64,000 bases of DNA from Xestospongia bergquistia (taxonomy: Eukaryota > Porifera > Demospongiae > Haplosclerida > Petrosiidae): positions 4,218,501 to 4,282,500 of the forward strand of contig OZ014412.1 of NCBI GenBank assembly GCA_963965975.1, in the 5' to 3' direction. The notes below the pieces were generated by a model. It made no database searches, was not told where the DNA came from, and saw only the letters and a list, made by a program, of their open reading frames with translations. A program made the position numbers and the translations under genes. This document shows, piece after piece, positions 1,080 through 60,031 of this stretch (position 1 is its first letter; each line of letters begins with the position of its first letter).

Positions 1080-4000
1080 TTACCATAATGAAAAAAAAAT
1101 CAATATTGCCAAAATGGCAAAAACTATCACTGTTGTTCTGGATGCAGAATTCGAAAACCACCAGTGCAGCACATTGTTGCTTTCATCATTTTCTTCTGGT
1201 TCCATATTTTCAATGGTATTTTCAATGCGATGCAGCTCTCTTTTCATTTCTTTAATTTTGTCCATATACCACTTACAAGTCAAGTCTTTGTCATTTTCAC
1301 CATTTTTACCACTTTTTGCTAAATCATAGCCATTACTAGCAATCTGGTAAATATCAAGAGGTGTAGTAACAAGCAGTGCAACTCCACCAACAACTCCTCC
1401 AGCAATTGCAGCAGCTCGAAGTCCCACGGTGCCAACCCTAGCAATAACTCTGCCTGAAGTAAGTCCTATTTCAACAGCAGCTGCACCACTTTTAAAAACT
1501 CCAATACTAGCACGACTTCCAATACCCAATGTACCATGTGCTATGTCAGTTTTTTTCATTTTAGCCTTTTCTTTCGATTGAGCAGATTCATAAGCTCGAT
1601 TATATTCATTGGCTATATCATTAACATTTGAGGTAAGTTGTTGGTCAAGCTTGATTTGTTCATTTGCTTCCTTTAACCTGGAAGATTTCATTACTTTAGA
1701 GACAATAGCAGCACCAAATGATGTAGCTGTTCCTAGAGCTCCTACCCCAGCTCCTGCTAGCGTCAATCCAATAGATGCACCAAATGTAAATGGTATAAGA
1801 GCAAGACCAGTTATAGTAAGAGCACCTCCAGCAACTAGACTTGTTGCAGATCCAGCAATTTTAGCAATCCTAACATCTCTGACAATTTTTAATATCTCAT
1901 CTTTCTGATTAGTGAGTAATTCAATTGTTTGGCGACGAATAGGACACCAAATAACGAGAGATAATCGACGCCATTGGTCCAGATCTTGACAATATTGAGT
2001 GTCATCACTAAAAAATAACAAATGAATTAAATGTGAAAGCATTTTTACTATTGAAACAAAGTAAACAGATGACATAATTATTTAGGAGATCTGAACATAT
2101 ATACAAATACAAATGAGGGTAATGATGTTTGGCCATGCTTGAGAGTTTTGGGGCTTAGGTCTAGGGTAGCCTAGCAAGCTAGACTCTCCTCTTTTTGACA
2201 AGCTGATGGTTGATTAGGATCTAGAAGCAACCCAGGCTTAATGCCCCATTGGAATGATTGGAATGTGGGGTGGTACTGTAATGTTTATGTGGTGGTTATA
2301 AACAATTATTACATTGCTAGGTGACCCTAAATTATTTTTGTTTCCTTCCAAATTGGATGTTGTGATGTCAAGCTAACATGAAACCCAGGGACGTCTTATT
2401 GCAGTACTAAATAAACTTGTCAAAGAAAATGTTTCTGAGAGAATTCCAGGTTGTTACCATGTTACCTATAAACACTTTGACAGTTCATCCTTTCAAAAAA
2501 CAAATCCATATATCATAGGGTTTTACAAGTGGCTAACTAGAAAACAAAAATAACTATCCAAGTTATCAGATATATGCTATAAACACTATTTTCATATCAC
2601 TTAATTGTAAAAAAAATGAAAAATCATCTAAACCAATATCACTTTTGTCATAATCTTCTTTGTCTTCCTGGGCTGAAATACAGCATATAGAAGTTGGAGG
2701 TACAAACAATTTCAGGAGAGATATCAAAGTTTACCATTTATGCAGCAGCAACACCTTTTTCATTTAGTGCTTTCACTGATCTTTCATTAGAGCTAACAAT
2801 AGTGAAATAACTAATACAATTGATGAATGCTCATCAGAAGATATTGGTAGAATGTCATCATATTTTAAATAATATTCAATAGCAAATGAGAGAATTTGAA
2901 ATATTAGAAATAAAACAATGATTTCACTCTAAAGCTTGCATTCTCTGCCTGTTGTTAGATAATCACGAGTCATTTGAAGACAGTCTAATCAAAATTGAAT
3001 TCCAAAAAAAGGGACTATGATGACATTATCATGAAATGACACAAGTGATGTCATCATATATGATGACATCATCTTAACGATACATTCACACTACTATTAT
3101 TAATCCTATGACACATGTGATGTCATCATCATAGTACAAGTTACATTATCATACAAGTTACACCAAGAAGGACCTGCAAATAGCTTTTTTCCTCAATATA
3201 TAATACCACGTGGCAATTGTAATAACAATTTATAATCAATATGTAAACATTGTAGTACTGCCCCACATTACAATCATTCCAAAATGTCAGTAAGCTTATT
3301 TCTCTTCTAGACCCTCTTCCACCCATCAGTTTATCAAAGGAGAAGGGTCTGGCTCACTAGACTAGGTCTAAGTTGAGAAAACGGTTTATGTTGTTTTCAT
3401 CAAAACTTCTGGTTTATTAATTTATCGGCACCTAATTAAGGCAAAAACTGGTGCCAGCTACTTAGACACACCAAAAAGTTTTGACTGACTGTTAAAGTAG
3501 ATGAATATGTAAATTTTAGTGCATATAACTTACTTGTTGTGAGTTGGTCTAGTTGCTAAAATTCTGTTGCAAGGACGATCGAAATTTGTTCTAGACTCAA
3601 CACGACAATTTTGGTCTCTGAGTTCTTGTTTTATTTTATCAACTATTTCATCAATCGGTGTAGTAAAGCAAAGAGCTTTCATACGATCGACAAAAACTGG
3701 TACTTGTGATTCATTTGTAGGATATACAGAGAGAACTACGGAATTGGAAGGACTAGATATACGATGGTCAATAACGGCTCGATTTTTAGTCCGAATAGTT
3801 TGAAAAATAAACAGTTTTGGTTTGTACTTAAGCTGTGGACAGTTTTCATCGGAGAAATAGCCTAGTATATCTCCAATTGGTATAGCTTCATTATTACTGC
3901 CATATATCCCTGGTGCTTTTCCCTCGCTAAGAATAATCAGAACAAAGGCATTAAATTTTGCTCGAAACTCAGTTGCAATGTCCTGAACTATTGTAAGCAG

Positions 4001-4234
4001 ATCATTAAGAGCTTTACTTGAAAGACAATTGAAACATAAAACCAGAAAACCTAACGTATTCTTAAAATAATAGTTGAGATCATGTACTTCCTCGCGACGT
4101 TCCATCTGCACACTATTGGATTTATCTGCATTAGTTTCCACAACATTATCAACAATTATTGCAAACCCTGAAAATTAAGGGAAAATATCATGCAAGCACG
4201 TATGAGAGTCCATACCTTGTTCTTGTTTTGGCAT
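1080..4234 (-). CDS. Pseudocaspase-ApoL fusion protein with C-terminal membrane anchor (copy C0)
   Basis: Three exons: 4216-4234, 3534-4167 and 1080-2007, with GT-AG borders in phases 1 and 2, giving 526 aa. Residues about 7-205 match the caspase p20/p10 fold: 'GFAIIVDN' strand, 'FVLIILSEG', 'CPQLKYKPKLFIFQ', and a p10-like part with 'SNSVVLSVYP'. The catalytic SHG motif reads S87-E88-G89 and the QACRG motif reads Q129-T-I-R-T133, so His and Cys are both replaced and the domain should not cleave protein. Exon 3 encodes an apolipoprotein-L-type region with a Gly/Ala-rich hydrophobic hairpin ('LTITGLALIPFTFGASIG') and a second hydrophobic stretch. The protein ends in a single hydrophobic helix ('TTVIVFAILAILIFFSLW'), a likely tail anchor absent from the two plus-strand paralogs. 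The start is the only ATG before the donor and is matched by the paralogs' gene structure. The function is inferred to concern cell death or membranes, not shown. Confidence 0.8.
3046..3071. repeat. 26-bp perfect palindrome in intron 2 of C0
   Basis: The arms TGATGTCATCATA and TATGATGACATCA are exact reverse complements with no loop. Further TGATGACAT/ATGTCATCA words lie within about 100 bp on both sides (3018-3130), so this is a cluster of related inverted words inside a 1.5 kb intron, about twice the length of the same intron in the paralogs. The TGATGTCATCA word resembles bZIP (CREB/ATF-type) sites; a site role is only a guess. Confidence 0.7.
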
Positions 4235-5510: not shown

Positions 5511-8500
5511 ATTACCACATATCATTATAGTTACATAGAGTACATTCTAATATTATTAATGTATAAACTGACTAACTTATATTATAAATCTGACAATACA
5601 GTAAACCTCATATCATAACATGTACTTGAATTCAGTGGTACACAATTCTAGTGTATATAAAAGAGTGACATAATGAGTAATGGGCATGGACACTACTTAT
5701 CATGACAGTGAGTTATCTGTTGACATAATATACTCATAAGGAGTTTCTATGGTTATTATGAAAGGTTTCTAAGATAAATATATTTTATGTATAATAGAAA
5801 AGAAGCAGACTATAAACTTGTTATACTATCATTATAATAATTATTAATTGTTAATTATTACCAATAACAGTTGTTATACTATTATACTATTACTTTCAAT
5901 ACACATTTACTGTCCATGTAATAACAACATATTATAAACTCATATACTTCTTTCTACATATAATGCTCTTAGTTCTGTAAACTTTGTATCATAACAGATA
6001 CTTAATCCAATATTACACTAGTCCAGTATAGAGAAAAGATAGCATTATGGAAAATAGGCTATGTATATCTGATAGTCTAAAGCTTTATAGACAAAAGGAA
6101 GATGTTGGCCTTGACACATACTTCCACAAATTGTTATAATACTAGTGTGCTTTAAACATCTATCTTATATGAGTTCCAGGCAGTGATCCACATAGACTTT
6201 GGAGCGTGAGGCTGTGTAAAGACAGAGGTTCTACTAGCTATCTGCCAAGACATTTTTAGATAGGTTAGGAGCTCTTTTAGGCTCTATTGATTTGCATAAG
6301 CCAGTATCCTCTATAGTCAAGTGGAATGACCCTTTATAATATTATAAAATATCTTATATCTCTTAATGTAAACCTAAGTCTGGTTCTAAGTTTACCTTGA
6401 AGAATGTTATATGATATAGTAATAGCATAGATAGCCATATTACTGACATAATAGCACTTCATGTGTGCCACCTGAAATATTACACATATGTCCTACAATA
6501 TCACACACTTATGATAAAGGTTATTGTCTTGACTATAGTCAGAGTATGTCTTTATAAATATATAAAATTACACTAGACAACAAAACAACATACATTTAGT
6601 ACTTTATAATGTACATGTACATATATAACATAAACCTAATATTAATTAATACATGTATACATGTATAAAGTATAGGATGAGGTTACCAACAAAGTAGCCT
6701 ATATATTAACCACTTACCTAGAAGCTCCAAATGTACTTGTCCATTTGTCACATTAATTTAAAACACCTGAACAGATCATTAGTAGTATATAGTCTAATAT
6801 ATGGAGGAGAGATATGATAAAATAAGTAAATTTTTGTCATAATTAATTATGTCATATTAGCAACAATAATAATAATTGACATAAATGAATGTAAATTATA
6901 AATTAGATTATAATCACTTTAAGATAACAGTGAAGAATAATGTCTATTTGTTGATATTGTCTAAATATTTGACAATCCCTTTCCCACATATCATTATAGT
7001 TACATAGAGTACATTCTAATATTATTAATCTATATACTGACTAACTTATATTACAATACTGACAATACAGTAAACCTCATATCATAACATAGAAGCTCCC
7101 AATGTATTTGTCCATTTGTCATGTTTTACCATATATCACTATAGTTACATAGAATAGATTCTAATAATATCAATGTATAAACTGACTAACTTATATTATA
7201 ATACTGTCTGTTCAATAAACCTCATATCATAGTGTATACTTAATTTAATAGTACACAATTCTAGTGTATATAAAGAAGTGACATAATGAGTAATGGGCAT
7301 GGATGCTACTTATCATAACAGTGAGTTGTCTGTTGATATAATATACCCGCAAGGAGTTTCTATGGTTACTATGAAAGGTTTCTAAGATAAATATATTTTA
7401 TGTATAATAGAAAAAGAAGCAGACTATAAAGTTGTTAAACTATTATAATAAACATTATAATCATTTATTAATTGTTAATTATTACCAATAACAGCTGTTA
7501 TACTATTATACTATTATTACTTTCAATACGCATTTACTGTCCATGTAATAACAACATATTATAAACTCATATACTTCTTTCTACATATAATGCTCTTAGT
7601 TCAGTAAACTCTGTATCATAACAGATACTTAATCCAATATTACACTAGTCCAGTATAGAGAAAAGATAGCATGATGGAAAATAGGCTGTGTATATCTGAT
7701 AGTCTAAAGCTTTATAGACAAAAGGAAGATGTTGGCCTTGACACATACTTCCACAAATTGTTATAATACTAGTGTGCTTTAAACATCTATCTTATATGAG
7801 TTCCAGGCAGTGATCCACATAGACTTTGGAGCGTGAGGCTGTGTAAAGACAGAGGTTCTACTAGCTATCTGCCAAGACATTTTTAGATAGATTAGGAGCT
7901 CTTTTAGGCTCTATTGATTTGCATATGCTAGGATTGTAGCCAGTATCCTCTATAGTCAAGTGGAACGACCCTTTATAATATTATCAAATATCTTATGTCT
8001 CTTAATGTAAACCTAAGTCTGGTTCTAGATTTACCCCAAAGAATGTTATATGATATAGTAATAGCATAGGTAGCCATATTAATGACACAACAGCACTTCA
8101 TGTGGAATATTACACATATGTCCTACAATATCACACATTTATGATAAAGGTTATTGTCCTGATATAGTCAAAATATGTCTTTGTTAGGACATAATACATA
8201 AAATTACATTAGACAACAAAAAAACATACATTTAGTTATTTCTAATATACATGTACATATATAATATATCATATATTAATTAATACATGTATACATGTAT
8301 AAAGTATAGGATGAGGTTACCAACAAAGTAGCCTATATATTAACCACTTACCTAGAAGCTCCAAATGTACTTGTCCATTTGTCACATTAATTTAAAACAC
8401 CTGAACAGATCATTAGTAGTATATAGTCTAATATATGGAGGAGAGATGTGATATAAATTTTGATCATGATTAATTATGTCATATTAATGTACAGTAATAA

Positions 8501-16919: not shown

Positions 16920-19280
16920 ATGTCTCTAGAGCAAGGTATGTACTTTAATTTCATATATAGTATTTTCCCCTTAATTTTCAGAAACAGAAATCACTCCCGA
17001 AATAAAAGGGCTTGCAATAGTTGTTGATAATGTTGTAGAAACTAATGCAGATAAGTTTAATGGTCCGCAGGTGGAACGTCGTGAGGAAGTGCAAGATCTC
17101 AACTTTTTTTTAAAGGATAAGTTAGGCTTTCTGGTTTTATGTTTCAATGGTCTTTCTAGTAAAGCTCTTAAGGATCTGCTTAAAATAGTTCAGGACATTG
17201 CAACTGAGTTTCGAGCAAACTTTAATGCCTTTGCTCTGATTATTCTTAGTAAGGGAGGGGCACCAGAAATATATGGCAGTAATAATGAACCTATACCAAT
17301 TGGAGATATACTAAGCTATTTTTCTGATGAAAACTGTCCTCAGTTTATGAACAAACTAAAACTGTTTTTTTTTCAAACGATTTTAAATGAAGATGGACCT
17401 GTTCCACAACGTCGTATATCTATTCCTTCCAATTCCGTAGTTCTCTCTGTATATCCTACAAATGAATCTCAAGTACCCGTTTTTGTTGATCGTGTGAAAG
17501 CTCGTTGCCGCACTACACCGATTGACGAAATAGTTGATACAATCAAAGAACAACTCAGAGACCATAATTGTCGTGTTGAGTGTAGAAAAAATTTCGATCG
17601 TCATTGCAATAGAATTTTAGCAACTAGACCTACTCACAACAAGTAAGTTATATGTATTAAATCTTTATATGTTCATCTGGTTTAACAGTCAATCTATTTC
17701 CATGGACTGTGTCTAGATAGCTGCAATACAACGAATTTTTTCACCTTGGGTAGCCAACAAATTAATAAACCCAAGGTTTCATAAAACAGCAGAAACTGTT
17801 CCCTCAACCCTTAAGTGTGGCCTGTCATTGTCATTAATGAAATAAAAAAATAGGAAAAGCAAAATATTAGCGGTATTGAACCAACTTCCTCTCTAATTAT
17901 ACACCAGTTTCTTAATTACACCACCCAGAATCACACATTTGAAGGTAGTTGGCAGAGAAATGCCACACTTTTATGTAAAATTAGTACAATTAGGTTCCAA
18001 GGTTTAGGGTCTAGTGTATAGTACTAATTTCACGTTAAAGTATGACATTCTCTGCTAGCTACCTAGACTCAGCATATTAGCATTTATGGCAATAAAAATG
18101 TGTGGGCATGTATTAATTTAAACCTTCCACCTGCTGGTTACTGAATGCTCTATAGCCAGTGCCAGCTACCTAGACACAGTAATAATTTTCTATAATTTCA
18201 TCAGGTCATACATTATTAAAAACTTAAAACTTGCAGTTAGGGTCTGTACACTTAAAGTAAAGTGGTAAAAATTATCACCCTCATTATGAATTTGCATTTA
18301 ATTTGTATGTTCAGATCTCCTTAGACTACGTATAATTTTCATGTAGTTGTTTTACTAATAATCATGTCATCCTGTGTATACTGTTATTTTCACTAGTAAA
18401 TAAATTTAACTCGTTTGTTTTTAGTGATAACAATGAAGATTTGGACCAACAGTATCAGTTATCTCTCGTTATTTGGTGTCCTATTCGTCGCCAAACAATT
18501 GAATTTCTCGATAATCAGAAAGATGAGATATTAAAAATTGTCAGAGATGTTAGGATTGCTAAAATTGCTGGATCTGCAACAAGTCTAATTGTTGGAGGAG
18601 CTCTTACCATAACTGGTCTCATTCTTATACCATTTACATTTGGTGCATCTATTGGATTGACGCTAGCTGGAGCTGGGGTAGGAGCTCTAGGAACAGCTAC
18701 TTCATTTGGTGCTGCTATTGTCTCTAAAGTAATGACTTCTACCAGGTTAAAAGAAGCGCATGATCATATCAAACTTGACCAACAACTGAGCTCAAATGTT
18801 AATGATATAGCCAATGAATATAATCGAGCTCTTCAATCTGCTCAATCACAAGGAAAGGCTAAAATGAACAAAGCTGACATAGCACATGGTGCATTGGGTA
18901 TTGGAGCTCGTGTTAGCGTTGGTGCTGCTAAAGGTAGTGCAGCTGGTATTGAAATAGGACTTGCTTCAGGCGGAGCTATTGCTAGGGCTGGTACTGTGGG
19001 ACTTCGAGCTGCTGCAATTGCTGGAGGAGTTGTTGGTGGAGTTGCACTAGTTGTTACTGCACCTCTTGATATCTACCAGATTGCTAGCAATAGCTATCAT
19101 TTAGTAAAAAGCGGTAAAAATGGTGAAAATGAGAAAGATTTGAGCTATAAGTGGTATATGGACAAAATTAGAAAAATGGAAAGAGAGCTATATCGGATTC
19201 AACATACGGAACCAGAGGAAGATAATGATGAAAGTGATGATGAAACCAAGCATCTGATGGTTCAATCTACACGCACATAG
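16920..19280 (+). CDS. Pseudocaspase-ApoL fusion protein, copy 1
   Basis: Exons 16920-16935, 16982-17642 and 18425-19280 join in frame through GT-AG introns (phases 1 and 2) to a 510-aa protein. Residues 13-215 form a caspase-like domain: 'GLAIVVDN' strand, 'FALIILSKG', 'CPQFMNKLKLFFFQ', p10-like 'SNSVVLSVYP'. The catalytic His position is K96 and the Cys position is I139 (Q-T-I-L-N for QACRG), so it is a predicted pseudoenzyme. Residues about 232-470 form the ApoL region with hydrophobic hairpin at about 274-325 and a second Gly/Ala-rich hydrophobic segment near 420-455. The C-terminus is acidic ('EPEEDNDESDDE') and lacks the terminal TM helix of C0. AATAAA at 19404-19409 is a likely poly(A) signal. 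By analogy with inactive caspase homologs such as cFLIP it may be a scaffold or decoy in death signalling; this is inference. Confidence 0.85.
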
Positions 19281-28950: not shown

Positions 28951-31442
28951 ATGAGAAAGTAAGATATTGATATTCATATATATTAACTATGATGTTAATT
29001 TAAAGTACTATTACTGTAACAACATTATTCTTTCTTCATGTTGGTAAGTGCATATTATATAACTGATTATATTTTGAGTCAGATCCTGTTGTGAGGGTAT
29101 GGCTCACTAGACTAGATAACTCTTATTTCAGTCTTCTTGTAGTAGCTGCAGCTGATATCTTCACTATCGTACCAGAGACACAATATGTCTATCTCAATCA
29201 TAATGTGACATTTGAGTGTGCTACTAACTTAACAGGATATACTCTAACATTTTCTTATGGTGGATCTATAGCAGTAATAGTTGAAGAAACTAATTTACCT
29301 GATGGTGGTATAAAAGTCTCAACAATTTTCATTTTAACTAATTCACTCAATGGTACTAGTGTGAGATGCCATGCTGATGATGATACGAATCCACTTGTAT
29401 CTACTAGAACTTCAAAAGTATATGCTTATGCTCAAGGTCTGAATATATTAGGATGTATATTAATATCATAATATAAACCAGGTCCTCCCAAATCTGTCTC
29501 AAATCTCCAAGGATATCAGTTAGACCATTGTTGTGTTGTCTTCAACTGGTCTCTTCCATTCACATTAGGACAGTTAACTGTGTGGTATCAAGTGACATTA
29601 AGTGTGGGGGAAGAAGTGATGTCATCAGAAGTAATCTATACTACTAACTACACTTATTGTCCAATTGACCTAACTAATGGAGAATATAGACTTAATATTA
29701 CTACAATCAATGGAGCAGGAACTGGAATATGGAACAGTAACACTACAATGTTTAAAACAGGTAATATATATCAGATAGTTCAGTTAATAACAATAGATTT
29801 ATTTAGAATTCCTAAACTGTTAAGTAATATAGTAGTATCATACTGATTTCGATATGTTAGAATAACTAATTAATATTACATTCAGATTTAATGACTTCAT
29901 TCTTTATACTCTGACCTTGTACTCTGACCTCTACTTAATAAGCAAGATGACATATAAGTACACTATTTTCTATTTACAGTTTACACACTAAATGTTAATT
30001 ACTATAATGACATGATTTATCAGCAAAATAACAAGTGGACCTATTACTTTAAATTACCAGTAAGTGTCACATGATCTGTTGATATGTCACATGATTTACT
30101 CTTTTACAGTCCACTCAACTCTGTACTCAACCTATTATGAATACAATAGTGATGAATTGTAACTTAAAGAACTCATCTAATTGTTATAACAGTACTAATG
30201 TTACTATTATCACTGACTCTAATGGATATAAGACTATAATATCAGTAATTGATCTTCCTTCTAGAGAGAAGTTTAATACATTTGTATACTTACAATATAA
30301 GAGTAGACAGATATTTCAAACTACTCCAGTAGTTACCAGTAAGTATATTGTATGTGTTTGTATATATTATTAATAGTTTGTTTAAAGGTACTCATGATCT
30401 ACAAGGTATCACTGTTTGGAATACTTCAGATAATGTCCTCTGTCTTCAATTTAAGTTAGTTCATGGTAGACAAATAACTGAACTACATCTAGATATAAGA
30501 AGAGGAGATAAACATTATAATGTGATTATCTCTGACTACACACGTCATTTAATTGATAATGACAATATCTATTGTAACAATCAACTTATCTTTACTAAAT
30601 GTTTCAGTGATATACCTCCTAGTAATAATTGGACATTATATGCATGTGATGGAGTCCTACCTAATGTCAGCTATATATGTTCTAATCCAGCTGTCATATT
30701 AACTGATATTACTATCACTGGCAGAGTGTCTATAGAACCTTCTACAACATCTACTGTGATATCTACTAGTATCAGTGATAGTATTAGTGAAGTACCTACT
30801 ATAACAGGTAATGACCACTATTATATAATGTACTATAGTTAATATATCTTATCTTGTGTACATCTCTGGGAGGAGGGGTGAGCTCTGTATGTGTATATAA
30901 CTATATTCTTGTTTAAATTTATCAAACAATTAATATACTTATCTCTAGTTATATCTATTACTACCATATCTACTGATATATTACAATATTATAATAATGA
31001 GTTTACCATTAGTGGTAAGTGATATATATCTTATGTGATATTGTCTGTTATCATTATCATCTATAACATGTAGTGACTTTGTTTACTATATCAACTGTTG
31101 TCATGGTAATATCATTATTAGTTAATATTATTACAGTTGTCATATGTTATAGAAGATATATCAACAGTGAGTTAAAATTAATAGTAATATAATATTTATG
31201 ATAATATTGTAAATAACATACTTTAATGTGAAATGAATACATGTAGGGTCCAATATTTATTGGTTAGGGTTCTGGGTTTAATATTAATTTCACATTGAAA
31301 AACATAAAATATCATTCTAAGATCTTAAACTAATAAAATATTTCATTAATATATTATTATAGGAACTAAAAAGAGAGAAGTTATCACTGACATGATGACA
31401 ATGAAGGAGTGTGATGCATATGGTGTTATTATAAGACAATAA
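28951..31442 (+). CDS. Ig/FN3 type I transmembrane receptor G1
   Basis: Ten exons: 28951-28958, 29006-29043, 29143-29436, 29482-29760, 29980-30059, 30110-30338, 30388-30807, 30949-31014, 31074-31166, 31363-31442; 528 aa in one open frame. Order: signal peptide (1-16); Ig domain (about 20-113) with Cys in 'TFECATN' and 'SVRCHAD' but no typical core Trp; FN3-like domain (114-206, 'CCVVFNW', 'EYRLNITTINGAGTG'); two unnamed Cys- and N-glycosylation-rich domains (207-309, 310-430); Ser/Thr-rich stalk; TM helix (about 473-495); and a tail of about 30 aa with 'RRYIN' and a final 'YGVIIRQ' (Y-x-x-hydrophobic sorting type, not an ITIM). The exon 3 acceptor is ambiguous by one codon (GTAGTAG). AATAAA at 31507-31512. 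The likely role is cell-surface recognition; the ligand is unknown. Confidence 0.75.
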
Positions 31443-37170: not shown

Positions 37171-39612
37171 CTGTGACAAGACTATTCTTTCTTCATGTTG
37201 GTAAGTGTATACTATATAACTGATTATATTGAGTTAGATCCTGCTATATATGAGGGTTTGGCTACTAGTCTAGGAATCTCTTATTTTAGTGTTCTTGTAG
37301 TAGCTGTAGCTGGTATTTTCACTATTGTACCAGAGACACAATATGTCTACCTCAATCATAATGTGACATTTGAGTGTGCTACTAACTTAACTGGATACAG
37401 CCTCTCATTTAACCACATCTTTGGTGGTGGATCTATAACTCCAACATTTAAACAAACTAATCTACCTGATGGTGGTATAAAGGTCTCAACAACCTTCACT
37501 GTAACAAGTGCTAACAATGGTACTGGTGTAAGATGCCATGCTGAAAATGATGATACTAATACACTTATATATTCTTCAAAAGTATATGCTTATGCTCAAG
37601 GTCTGTATATAGTATTTATGTTAATATTTTAATACAAACCAGGCCCTCCTAAAGCTGTCTCTGATCTTCAAGGATATCAGTTAGATCATTGTTGTATTGT
37701 CTTCTCCTGGTCTCCTCCGTTCACATTAGGACAGTTAAGTGTGTGGTATCAAGTGACATTAAGTGTAGGAGAAGAAGTGATGTCATCAGAAGTAATCTAT
37801 ACTACTAACTACACTTATTGTCCTATTGATCTAACTAATGGAGAATATAGACTTAATATTACTACAATGAATGGAGCAGGAACTGGAATATGGAACAGTA
37901 ATACTACAATGTTTAAAACAGGTAATATATATCAAGTAGTTCAGTTAATAACAATAGATTTATTTATAGTTCCTAAACTGTTGTGTAGTAATATTATCGT
38001 TTCAATCTGTTGTAATACATTATAATAACTAATATTACATTCAGATTCAATGACTTCATTGTTATACTCTGACCTTGTACTCTGACCTCTACTTAATAGT
38101 GTTAAAAGCAAGATGACATATAATTACACTATTTATTTTCTATTCACAGTTTACACACTAAATGTTAATTACTATAATGACATGATTTATCAGCAAAATA
38201 ACAAGTGGACCTATTACTTTAAATTACCAGTAAGTGCCAACATGATCTGTTGATATGTCACATGACTTACACTCTTACAGTCCACTCAACTCTGTACTCA
38301 ACCTATTATGAATACAATAGTGATGAATTGTAACTTAAAGAACTCATCTAATTGTTATAACAGTACTAATGTTACTATTATCACTGACTCTAATGGATAT
38401 AAGACTATAATATCAGTAATTGATCTTCCTCCTAGAGAGAAGTTCAATACATTTGTATACTTACAATATAAGGGTAGACAGATATTTCAAACTACTCCAG
38501 TAGTTACCAGTAAGTATATTGTATGTGTTTGTATATATTATTAATAGTTTATTTAAAGGTACTCATGATCTACAAGGTGTCACTGTTTGGAATACTTCAG
38601 ATAATGTCCTGTGTCTTCAATTTAAACTTGTTCATGGCAGACAAATAACTAAACTACATCTAGATATAAGAAGAGGAGATAAACGTTATAATCTGATTGT
38701 CTCTGACTACACACGCCATTTAATTGATAATGACAATATCTATTGTAACAATCAACTTATATTTACTAAATGTTTCAGTGATATACCTTCTGGTAATAAT
38801 TGGACATTATATGTATGTGATGGAGTCCTATCTAATGTCAGCTATATATGTTCTAATCCAGCTATCATATTAACTGATATTACTATCACTGGCAGAGTGT
38901 CTATAGAACCTTCTAGAACATCTACTGTGATATCTACTAGTATCAGTGATAGTATTAGTGAAGTACCTACTATAACAGGTAATGACCTCTATTATATAAT
39001 GTACTATAGTTAATATATATTTTATCTTGTGTACATCATTGGGAGGAGGGGTGAGCTCTGTATGTGTATATAACTATATTCTTGTTTAACTTTATCAAAC
39101 AATTAATATACTTATCTCTAGTTATATCTATTACTACCATATCTACTGATATATTACAATATTATAATAATGAGTTTACCATTAGTGGTAAGTGATATAT
39201 ATCTCATGTGATATTATCTGTTATCATTATCATCTACAACACGTAGTGACTTTGTTTACTATATCAGCTGTTGTCATGGTAATATCATTATTAGTTAATA
39301 TTATTACAGTTATCATATGTTATAGAAGATATATCAACAGTGAGTTAAAATTAATAGTAATATAATATTTATGATAATATAAATAGCATACTTCAACGTG
39401 AAATTTATACATGTAGGGTCCAATATTTATTGGTTAGGGTTCTGGGTTTAATATTAATTTCACATTGAAAAACATAAAATATCATTCTAAGATCTTAAAC
39501 TAATAAAATATTTCATTAATATATTATTGTAGGAACTAAACAGAGAGAGGTTATCAATGACATGATGACAATGAAAAAGTGTGATGCATATGGTGTTATT
39601 ATAAGACAATAA
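37171..39612 (+). pseudogene. Ig/FN3 receptor G2, lacking its start
   Basis: Remaining exons: 37171-37200 (3' part of the signal peptide), 37301-37600 (Ig), 37643-37921 (FN3), 38150-38229, 38281-38509, 38559-38978, 39122-39187, 39247-39339 (TM), 39533-39612. All are open, and the protein is otherwise close to G1. A deletion has removed exon 1, the start of exon 2, the TATA box and the whole head-to-head promoter; the frame upstream of the remnant signal peptide meets a stop before any ATG. A second deletion after the stop codon removed the poly(A) signal, the alternative exon and the Death exon. The Ig domain differs from G1 and G3 mainly in the middle ('NHIFGGGSITPTFKQ'). Confidence 0.7.
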
Positions 39613-47373: not shown

Positions 47374-49695
47374 ATGTCTCTAGAGCAAGGTATGTACTTT
47401 AATTTCATATATAGTATTTTCCCCTTAATTTTCAGAAACAGAAATCACTCCCGAAATAAAAGGGCTTGCAATAGTTGTTGATAATGTTGTAGAAACTAAT
47501 GCAGATAAGTTTAATGGTCCGCAGGTGGAACGTCGTGAGGAAGTGCAAGATCTCAACTTTTTTTTAAAGGATAAGTTAGGCTTTCTGGTTTTATGTTTCA
47601 ATGGTCTTTCTAGTAAAGCTCTTAAGGATCTGCTTAAAATAGTTCAGGACATTGCAACTGAGTTTCGAGCAAACTTTAATGCCTTTGCTCTGATTATTCT
47701 TAGTAAGGGAGGGGCACCAGAAATATATGGCAGTAATAATGAACCTATACCAATTGGAGATATACTAAGCTATTTTTCTGATGAAAACTGTCCTCAGTTT
47801 ATGAACAAACTAAAACTGTTTTTTTTTCAAACGATTTTAAATGAAGTTGGACCTGTTCCACAACGTCGTATATCTATTCCTTCCAATTCCGTAGTTCTCT
47901 CTGTATATCCTACAAATGAATCTCAAGTACCCGTTTTCGTTGATCGTGTGAAAGCTCGTTGCCGCACTACACCGATTGACGAAATAGTTGATACAATCAA
48001 AGAACAACTCAGAGACCATAATTGTCGTGTTGAGTGTAGAAAAAATTTCGATCGTCATTGCAATAGAATTTTAGCAACTAGACCTACTCACAACAAGTAA
48101 GTTATATGTATTAAATCTTTATATGTTCATCTGGTTTAACAGTCAATCTATTTCCATGGACTGTGTCTAGATAGCTGCAATACAACGAATTTTTTCACCT
48201 TAGGTAGCCAACAAATTAATAAACCCAAGGTTTCATAAAACAGCAGAAACTGTTCCCTCAACCCTTAAGTGTGGCCTGTCATTGTCATTAATGAAATAAA
48301 AAAATAGGAAAAGCAAAATATTAGCGGTATTGAACCAACTTCCTCTCTAATTATACACCAGTTTCTTAATTACACCACCCAGAATCACACATTTGAAGGT
48401 AGTTGGCAGAGAAATGCCACACTTTTATGTAAAATTAGTACAATTAGGTTCCAAGGTTTAGGGTCTAGTGTATAGTACTAATTTCACGTTAAAGTATGAC
48501 ATTCTCTGCTAGCTACCTAGACTCAGCATATTAGCATTTATGGCAATAAAAATGTGTGGGCATGTATTAATTTAAACCTTCCACCTGCTGGTTACTGAAT
48601 GCTCTATAGCCAGTGCCAGCTACCTAGACACAGTAATAATTTTCTATAATTTCATCAGGTCATACATTATTAAAAACTTAAAACTTGCAGTTAGGGTCTG
48701 TACACTTAAAGTAAAGTGGTAAAAATTATCACCCTCATTATGAATTTGCATTTAATTTGTATGTTCAGATCTCCTTAGACTACGTATAATTTTCATGTAG
48801 TTGTTTTACTAATAATCATGTCATCCTGTGTATACTGTTATTTTCACTAGTAAATAAATTTAACTCATTTGTTTTTAGTGATAACAATGAAGATTTGGAC
48901 CAACAGTATCAGTTATCTCTCGTTATTTGGTGTCCTATTCGTCGCCAAACAATTGAATTTCTCGATAATCAGAAAGATGAGATATTAAAAATTGTCAGAA
49001 ATGTTAGGATTGCTAAAATTGCTGGATCTGCAACAAGTCTAATTGTTGGAGGAGCTCTTACCATAACTGGTCTCATTCTTATACCATTTGCATTTGGTGC
49101 ATCTATTGGATTGATGCTAGCTGGAGCTGGGGTAGGAGCTCTAGGAACAGCTACTTCATTTGGTGCTGCTATTGTCTCTAAAGTAATGACTTCTACCAGG
49201 TTAAAAGAAGCGCATGATCATATCAAACTTGACCAACAACTGAGCTCAAATGTTAATGATATAGCCAATGAATATAATCGAGCTCTTCAATCTGCTCAAT
49301 CACAAGGAAAGGCTAAAATGAACATAGCTGACATAGCACATGGTGCATTGGGTATTGGAGCTCGTGTTAGCGTTGGTGCTGCTAAAGGTAGTGCAGCTGG
49401 TATTGAAATAGGACTTGCTTCAGTTGCTGCAATTGCTGAAGGAGTTGTTAGTGGAGCTTCACTAGTTGTTACTGTACCTCTTGATATCTACCAGATTGCT
49501 AGCAATAGCTATCATTTAGCAATAAGTGGTAAAAATGGTGAAAATGAGAAAGATTTGATCTATAAGTGGTATATGGACAAAATTAGAGAAATGGAAGAAG
49601 AGCTATATCAGATTCAACATACGGAACCAGAGGAAGATAATGATGAAAGTGATGATGAAACCAAGCATCTGATGGTTCAATCTACACCCACATAG
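47374..49695 (+). CDS. Pseudocaspase-ApoL fusion protein, copy 2
   Basis: Exons 47374-47389, 47436-48096 and 48879-49695 give 497 aa. The caspase-like half differs from copy 1 at a single residue (Asp143 to Val) and has the same dead site (K96, I139). The ApoL half has an in-frame 39-bp deletion near 49424 removing 13 residues of the second hydrophobic segment, plus about 16 amino-acid changes, several reversing charge ('REMEEELYQIQ' for 'RKMERELYRIQ'). Introns are nearly unchanged. AATAAA lies at 49819-49824. The protein is probably functional, since no frame break occurs, with an altered membrane-active part. Confidence 0.85.
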
Positions 49696-57577: not shown

Positions 57578-60031
57578 ATGAGAAAGTAAGAGATTGATAT
57601 TTACATATTTTAACTATGATGTTAATTTAAAGTACTATTACTGTCACAACATTATTCTTTCTTCATGTTGGTAAGTGTATATTATATAACTGATTTTATT
57701 GATTCAGATCCTGTTTGTGAGGATTTGGCTCACTAGACTAGATAACTCTTATTTCGGTGTTCTTGTAGTAACTACAGCTGGTATCTTCACTATTGTACCA
57801 GAGACACAATATGTCTACCTCAATTGTAGTGTGACATTTGAGTGTGCTACCAACTTAACTGGATATACTCTAACATTTTCTTATGGTGTAGCAGTAGATG
57901 AAACATTTAACCCAATTGATCTACCTGATGGTGGTAAAAAAGTCACAACAACCTTCATTGTAACTCATTCACTCAATGGTACTAGTGTTAGATGTCACGC
58001 TGATGATGATGATAATTCATTTATATCTACTTCAAAAGTATATGCTTATGCTCAAGGTCTGTATATTGATATCTTAATACATAAGGATGCATATTGATAT
58101 CTTAATACAAACCAGGTCCTCCTGAAGCTGTCTACGATCTCCAAGGATATCAGTTAGATTATTGTTGTATTGTCTTCTTCTGGTCTCCTCCATTCACATT
58201 AGGACAGTTAAGTGTGTGGTATCAAGTGACATTAAGTGTAGGAGAAGAAGTGATGTCACCAGAAGTAATCTATACTTCTAACTACACTTACTGTCCTATT
58301 GACCTAACTAATAGAGAATATAGACTTAATATTATTACAATCAATGGGGCAGGGACTGGAATATGGAACAGTAATACTACATTATATAAAACAGGTAATA
58401 TATATGAGATAGTTCAGTTAATAACAATAGATTTATTTATAAATCCTAAACTGTTGTGTAGTAGTATTATCGTTTCAATCTGTTGTAATGCATTATAATA
58501 ACTAACATTACATTCAGATTCAATGACTTCATCCTTTATACTCTGACCTCTACTTAATAGTGTTAAAAGCAAGATGACATATAAGTACACTATTTTCTAT
58601 TCACAGTTTACACACTAAATGTTAATTACTATAATGACATGGTTTATCAGCAAAATAACAAGTGGACCTATTACTTTAAATTACCAGTAAGTGCCAACAT
58701 GATCTGTTGATATGTCACATGATTTACTCTTTTACAGTCCACTCAACTCTGTACTCAACCTATTATGAATACAATAGTGATGAGTTGTAATTTAAAGAAC
58801 TCTTCTAATTGTTATAACAGTACTAATGTTACTATTATCACTGACTCTAATGGATATAAGACTATAATATCAGTAATTGATCTTCCTCCTAGAGAGAAGT
58901 TTAATACATTTATATACTTACAATATAAGAGTAGACGGATATTTCAAACTACTCCAGTAGTTACCAGTAAGTATATTGTATGTGTTTGTATATATTATTA
59001 ATAGTTTGTTTAAAGGTACTCATGATCTACAAGGTATCACTGTTTGGAATACTTCAGATAATGTCCTGTGTCTTCAATTTAAACTTGTTCGTGACAGACA
59101 AATAACTGAACTACATCTAGATATGAGAAATGAAGATAAACATTATAATCTGATTGTCACTAACATGACACATTCCCACTTTGATCAATGTTTCAGTGAT
59201 ATACCTCCTGGTAATAATTGGACATTATATGTATGTGATGCAGTCCTACCTAATGTCAGTGATACATGTTCTAATCCAGCTGTTATATTAACTGATATTA
59301 CTATCACTGGCAGAGTGTCTATAGAACCTTCTAGAACATCTACTGTGATATCTACTAGTATCAGTGATAGTATTAGTGAAGTACCTACTATAACAGGTAA
59401 TGATCTCCATTATATAATGTACCATAGTTAATATATCTTATCTTGTGTACATCTCTGGGAGGAGGCGTGAGCTCTGTATGTGTATATAACTATATCCTTG
59501 TTTAAATTTATCAAACAATTAATATATTTATCTCTAGTTATATCTATTACTACCATATCTACTGATATATTACAATATTATAATAATGAGTTTACCATTA
59601 GTGGTAAGTGATATATATCTTATGTGATATTATCTGTTATCATTATCATCTATAACATGTAGTGACTTTATTTACTATATTAGCTGTTGTCATGGTAATA
59701 TCATTATTAGTTAATATTATTACAGTTGTCATATGTTATAGAAGATATATCAACAGTGAGTTAAAATTAATAGTAATATAATATTTATGATAATATTGTA
59801 AATAACATACTTTAATATGAAATGAATACATGTAGGGTCCAATATTTATTGGTTAGGGTTCTGGGTTTAATATTAATTTCACATTGAAAAACATAAAATA
59901 TCATTCTAAGATCTTAAACTAATAAAATATTTCATTAATATATTATTATAGGAACTAAACAGAGAGAAGTTATCACTGACATGATGACAATGAAGGAGTG
60001 TGATGCATATGGTGTTATTATAAGACAATAA
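57578..60031 (+). CDS. Ig/FN3 type I transmembrane receptor G3
   Basis: Exons 57578-57585, 57633-57670, 57769-58056, 58116-58394, 58607-58686, 58738-58966, 59016-59396, 59538-59603, 59663-59755, 59952-60031; 513 aa. It has the same order as G1: signal peptide, Ig, FN3, two further ectodomains, stalk, TM, short tail ending 'YGVIIRQ'. The Ig domain has an extra Cys ('YLNCSVTFEC') and its own middle ('YGVAVDETFNPI'). The fourth ectodomain has a 39-bp in-frame deletion and neighbouring changes ('MTHSHFDQCFSD'). FN3 and domain 3 are nearly unchanged from G1. Poly(A) signal AATAAA at 60096-60101. It is probably functional. Confidence 0.75.

Follow-up and report, generated by a model that had tools for sequence, protein, structure and literature searches.

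A 64,000-nucleotide (nt) stretch of the Xestospongia bergquistia genome (GCA_963965975.1, contig OZ014412.1), hereafter the window, to which coordinates refer unless a locus is named, contains three genes, A, B and C, each predicted to join a protease-dead caspase domain to an apolipoprotein L (ApoL) domain in a single reading frame. We have very little doubt about this predicted architecture, and A, B and C are, by their sequences, members of a genome-wide family of some twenty fused genes. The best overall explanation, which we give about an even chance of being correct, is that an old dead-caspase–ApoL family links a membrane effector to death or immune signalling.

Gene B (plus strand) starts with an exon comprising the ATG and five codons up to a phase-1 donor (16920-16935), which joins in frame to the exon encoding the protease-dead caspase domain (16982-17642; PF00656, E = 9.8e-12). 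A phase-2 intron (17643-18424), defined by the top-scoring frame-compatible junction, leads to exon 3, which encodes the ApoL domain with its hydrophobic hairpin and the stop codon (18425-19280; PF05461, E = 5.9e-17). Gene C (plus strand) begins with an identical, in-frame copy of this first exon (47374-47389), followed by a protease-dead caspase exon (47436-48096; PF00656, E = 3.4e-11) and an ApoL exon with a 13-codon in-frame deletion relative to B (48879-49695; PF05461, E = 1.9e-13). Gene A lies on the minus strand and comprises exon 1 (4216-4234, in-frame join), the protease-dead caspase exon (3534-4167; PF00656, E = 5.4e-13) and an ApoL exon with, by hydropathy, an extra C-terminal hydrophobic tail (1080-2007; PF05461, E = 1e-14). 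The first exons hold five or six codons, splice sites are intact, and the frames are open throughout, yielding 510 (B), 526 (A) and 497 (C) codons with a single terminal stop each. These models bear out the claim of the first-pass annotation that three exons form one caspase–ApoL frame in three genes, and the profile matches that it had called for were found in both halves, as all six large exons (three for PF00656, three for PF05461) exceed the Pfam curated cut-offs. Genes B and C are a recent duplicate pair, with caspase-like exons sharing 99.5% protein identity. Among the three genes, only A ends in a strongly hydrophobic tail (1080-1160), a possible membrane anchor.

Our survey of the genome from which the window comes (146.46 Mb, 21 contigs), in which the DNA of all 25 ApoL places was examined, revealed a dead-caspase exon upstream of ApoL in 22 of them. 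The number of three genes reported initially understated the extent of the arrangement. The exceptions are L018, a degraded locus with a kinase remnant, and L026 and L030. The latter two (L026, 7551-8456; L030, 7181-8101, in locus coordinates) are stand-alone ApoL genes with no caspase exon seen nearby, and are distant from the fused genes in the tree; L030 also weakly matches SseC, with a score under its cut-off. Broken relatives occur as well: L021 has a stop in ApoL, and L018 and L029 have split frames.

We scored splice junctions with a simple home-made consensus in 20 dead-caspase/ApoL pairs of this genome; L021 and L029, with their disrupted ApoL frames, are outside this set. In all 20 pairs, the top frame-compatible junction falls in phase 2, and in 19 of them it scores above both wrong-frame offsets, L025 being a narrow failure; for gene B, the scores are 11.8 and 11.6 for the frame-compatible junction and the wrong-frame offset, respectively. 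The best acceptor into the dead-caspase exon is phase 1 in 19/19 scored cases, and in eight loci (L010, L012-L017 and L023, with L016 a near-copy of L015) an intron of 57-101 nt separates the two halves. In the ApoL exon, the first methionine comes at residue 106 in gene A and residue 103 in gene B, both beyond the hydrophobic hairpin, and at residue 79 in gene C, within the hairpin; therefore, none of these three exons could be translated whole by itself. This argument is limited to the window type, as most relatives on contig C1 have a methionine near residue 12 of the ApoL exon. The two halves also co-diverge (r = 0.886 across 18 genes, with 0 of 9999 permutations as high), gene C being excluded from this test as a near-copy. 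The alternative of two separate neighbouring genes, with no fusion protein, draws on the fused chain being a prediction from genomic sequence and on the in-frame stop that follows the exon-2 donor if intron 2 is retained. We rejected it as extremely improbable on the basis of the uniform intron phases, the short gaps and the late start codon, with no methionine ahead of the hairpin in A, B or C, as well as the joint divergence of the halves.

The first-pass annotation had read both catalytic residues as lost in A, B and C, and our alignment agrees: the histidine column holds K in B and C and E in A, and the cysteine column holds I in all three. Across the 20 dead-caspase rows aligned, among them those of A, B and C, both residues are lost throughout, and the substrate-binding loop (MRD..GSWYI) is missing from every row; it is present in five of six aligned caspases encoded upstream in some relatives (see below). 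The caspase half is predicted with confidence to adopt a complete caspase fold, close to that of cFLIP-L. The window proteins are caspase homologues, not caspase proteases. In the tree, the dead caspases form one clade, apart from the upstream catalytic caspases, and the catalytic loss therefore looks ancestral. We rejected the upstream caspase as a recent source of the dead one in view of these separate clades, long branches leaving some doubt. An NCBIfam search returned no caspase match. Elsewhere in the genome, two large tandem clusters of caspase-like exons (L048-L051; C11:6.28-6.47 Mb and C12:5.39-5.54 Mb) have no ApoL place nearby, and all four loci sampled lack SHG and QACRG; the genome seems to carry many further pseudocaspases beyond the ApoL family. 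Two loci inspected in a search for silicatein among the cathepsin genes carry an ordinary catalytic cysteine (GSCWAF), which speaks neither for nor against a sponge source.

By profile, the window proteins are ApoL-family members, with a PF05461 match that begins at profile position 66 and leaves positions 1-65 unmatched. Hydropathy of A and B delineates a hydrophobic hairpin, rich in glycine and turning at PFTFG, and a second hydrophobic stretch, and hairpin residues rank among the most conserved. Human APOL1-6 share with the window exons the above-cut-off match from position 66 and the hairpin; the window proteins differ in having no match to profile positions 1-65 and in being joined to a caspase-like domain, a partner not known in human APOLs. 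Published work, of which PMC7891394 was consulted in excerpt, describes an APOL pore-forming domain with a transmembrane hairpin and draws a comparison with colicins, diphtheria toxin and BCL2 proteins. Over the hairpin encoded here, alpha-pore-forming proteins match weakly (E = 0.026 and 3.3e-4), far under any cut-off; for the bacterial MakA/MakE type, the local hairpin match (E = 3.3e-4 and 0.0017) reaches 19.8 and 17.4 bits against cut-offs of 360 and 320, and we claim no kinship. An ApoL alignment searched against prokaryote genome contigs and viral contigs gave 56 and 31 pattern matches, respectively, none of which was confirmed; as it covered prokaryote and viral collections only, this search says little about ApoL relatives.

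Three front ends occur at the same phase-1 entry into the dead-caspase exon: the few codons of the window genes, a caspase plus linker, and a protein kinase. On contig C1, loci L010, L012-L016, L022, L023 and L029 have a caspase exon upstream, its frame being split in L010 and L029. Among the six aligned upstream caspases (L010, L016 and L029 excluded), five retain SHG and QACRG intact and L022 has lost both. In six of eight loci tested (L010, L013, L014, L015, L022 and L023), the top-ranked solution is an in-frame caspase–linker–dead-caspase chain with phases 2 and 1. Caspase-headed genes, too, apparently start with a tiny phase-1 exon, judged by eye in L012, L013, L014 and L022. In L013, a decayed second dead-caspase exon is visible by eye between the linker and the open one (2450-2830). 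With phase-1 boundaries on either side, the block of caspase plus linker can be lost, gained or skipped without a change of frame; this symmetry could provide a route by which the forms interconvert, rather than proof that they do.

The kinase exon of L011, L021 and L024 ends in phase 1 at a conserved AG/GTATAT donor just before the dead-caspase exon, its frame being interrupted by a stop in L021. The exons match PF00069 (L024, E = 1.8e-32; L011, E = 1.3e-32), and in the PDB the L024 kinase is closest to TNNI3K, followed by plant receptor-like kinases and CTR1, which we take to be a TKL-like set. No kinase match was detected in the 64-kb window. Ten genes (A, B, C, L009, L017, L019, L020, L025, L027 and L028) showed no caspase or kinase exon upstream. 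In L027 (minus strand), a perfect 64-nt palindrome occupies oriented positions 6129-6192, where the dead-caspase exon starts.

Both halves are, judging from substitution patterns, under purifying selection. The NG86 ratio is below 1 in both halves for nine of the ten pairs computed; in the tenth, B–C, it is the ApoL half that departs. Over its 856 nt, this exon differs at 19 sites between B and C, of which 18 are nonsynonymous and 1 synonymous, in addition to the 13-codon deletion; intron 2 of the same pair has only 2 differences in 782 nt. The effector half may have undergone positive selection or relaxed constraint, or may hold a conversion tract. Five chosen pairs, pooled in a test that treats changes as independent, display a synonymous excess in the caspase and ApoL halves alike (p about 1e-13 and 4e-13). 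The short linker of L013 and L023 is open in both loci with a ratio of 0.91, compatible with little constraint. Decay into non-functional copies would fit the broken relatives (L021, L018 and L029) and the moderate A–B dN/dS; we consider it very improbable given that A, B and C are open with intact splice sites, that C stays in frame despite its deletion, and that pooled purifying selection acts on the family.

By sequence, the constant core of the family is the dead caspase joined via the conserved phase-2 intron to the ApoL domain. For its mechanism we tentatively propose, with somewhat less than even confidence, that the dead caspase would act in the manner of cFLIP as a non-proteolytic docking or dimerisation module, a reading suggested by a fold kept whole while the chemistry was lost, by the membrane domain that follows and by the optional caspase or kinase that precedes. 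The ApoL domain would be the membrane-inserting output, tied to death or immune signalling by the dead caspase. In the relatives, the input would be supplied in cis by a caspase with intact catalytic motifs plus linker, or by a protein kinase. The window genes, the minimal form, would be recruited in trans, and the simplest route would be to pair with a caspase domain. Recruitment would concentrate the ApoL part at a membrane or release it for insertion. We infer the pairing, the membrane insertion and the role in death from these features; killing, restraint of killing and membrane shaping may each be what the window proteins do. The first-pass annotation had interpreted the fusion as a scaffold or decoy coupling death signalling to membrane action. 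Its architecture and catalytic loss stand, through profiles, splice phases, the family and the structure model; its scaffold or decoy component is still interpretation, and gains from the relatives in which an intact-looking caspase or a kinase precedes the core and from the cFLIP-like fold.

Known systems provide partial parallels. cFLIP-L (CFLAR) is an inactive caspase-8 homologue, and an inactive caspase domain is common to it and the window proteins. cFLIP bears two DEDs at its N-terminus and lacks an ApoL part, whereas the window genes lack DEDs and carry an ApoL tail; the window proteins are hence not cFLIP, though they may work similarly. The caspase-8/cFLIP heterodimer (PDB 3h11) pairs an intact with a dead caspase, and the caspase-headed relatives likewise join an intact-looking caspase to a dead one, here in one predicted chain. 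The gasdermin and RIPK-MLKL executioner pathways couple a caspase or kinase input to a membrane effector; here the input, the dead caspase and the membrane domain would reside in one predicted chain, the membrane domain is ApoL, and the likeness is one of analogy only. A bolder version, possible but doubtful in our estimation, is a one-chain executioner beside gasdermins and MLKL: an active caspase or kinase would signal, the dead caspase would serve as a built-in dimer partner, ApoL would permeabilise host or microbial membranes, and the window genes would be stand-alone effector or brake subunits.

A rather unlikely alternative is an inhibitory decoy, in which the window-type core pairs with and blocks caspase-headed relatives or other caspases, ApoL merely anchoring the brake. 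The loss of histidine, cysteine and substrate loop with retention of a fold close to cFLIP-L would suit such a decoy, as would the fact that the window form equals the caspase-headed form minus caspase and linker. However, ApoL is constrained as much as the caspase half, which exceeds the needs of an anchor, its hairpin residues are among the most conserved, and the same core is also found behind a kinase.

DED matches occur at 32 places genome-wide, none of them at family loci; near the family genes, CARD gave no match, and Death gave none among 150 of 983 candidates. Comparison of the regions upstream of the caspase exon yielded 94 plus-strand matches, nearly all between near-copies (L012/L014/L029, L010/L015 and L013/L023) and in several frames, as expected from plain DNA similarity. 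The longest of these is a 246-codon open reading frame (ORF) in L014 with a signal-peptide-like start, by eye a neighbouring gene. A hidden shared prodomain was thus rejected, none having emerged from either approach. This lack of death-fold matches would agree with a membrane-shaping or trafficking protein that has no death role, its dead caspase being a generic binding fold and its ApoL domain acting on lipids, as would the non-lytic functions that the excerpted PMC10937811 proposes for human APOLs in the membrane dynamics of Golgi and mitochondria. We regard this explanation as unlikely, as the caspases that head several members keep their catalytic motifs intact and thereby point to proteolytic signalling.

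Several observations weigh against an ApoL effector wired to death or immune signalling. The gene models rest on genomic sequence; for gene B, a difference of 0.2 separates the frame-compatible junction from the wrong-frame offset, and L025 falls just short. The structure prediction recommended by the first-pass annotation succeeded for the caspase half, but the ApoL model (pLDDT 47.6) is too poor to use. Among the eight loci tested, L012 gave no caspase–linker chain, and the top-ranked chain of L029 has another phase. The A–B dN/dS values are only 0.54 and 0.68, indicating modest constraint. Finally, no DED or CARD match, and no Death match among the 150 of 983 candidates scored, lies near the genes, so that nothing in these data links the window genes to a receptor.

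If our explanation holds, a fixed pseudocaspase adaptor would wire an ApoL membrane effector directly to caspase or kinase signalling in an animal, APOL proteins would gain an ancient cell-death partner, and single polypeptides would allow joint tests of membrane action and of caspase/pseudocaspase pairing. Excerpts of PMC10937811 call the basic function of human APOLs poorly understood. The parts are known singly; we found no description of the combined arrangement in the open-access literature, where no caspase–ApoL fusion appeared among the matches listed (subscription papers and bioRxiv lying outside this scope), no paper pairing 'caspase' with 'ApoL domain' was found, and the excerpted text of PMC8195603 does not mention 'ApoL'.

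The window also contains three near-identical copies of an ORF block (29067-30842, 37177-39013 and 57690-59431), which by eye seem to encode Ig/fibronectin-type extracellular domains.
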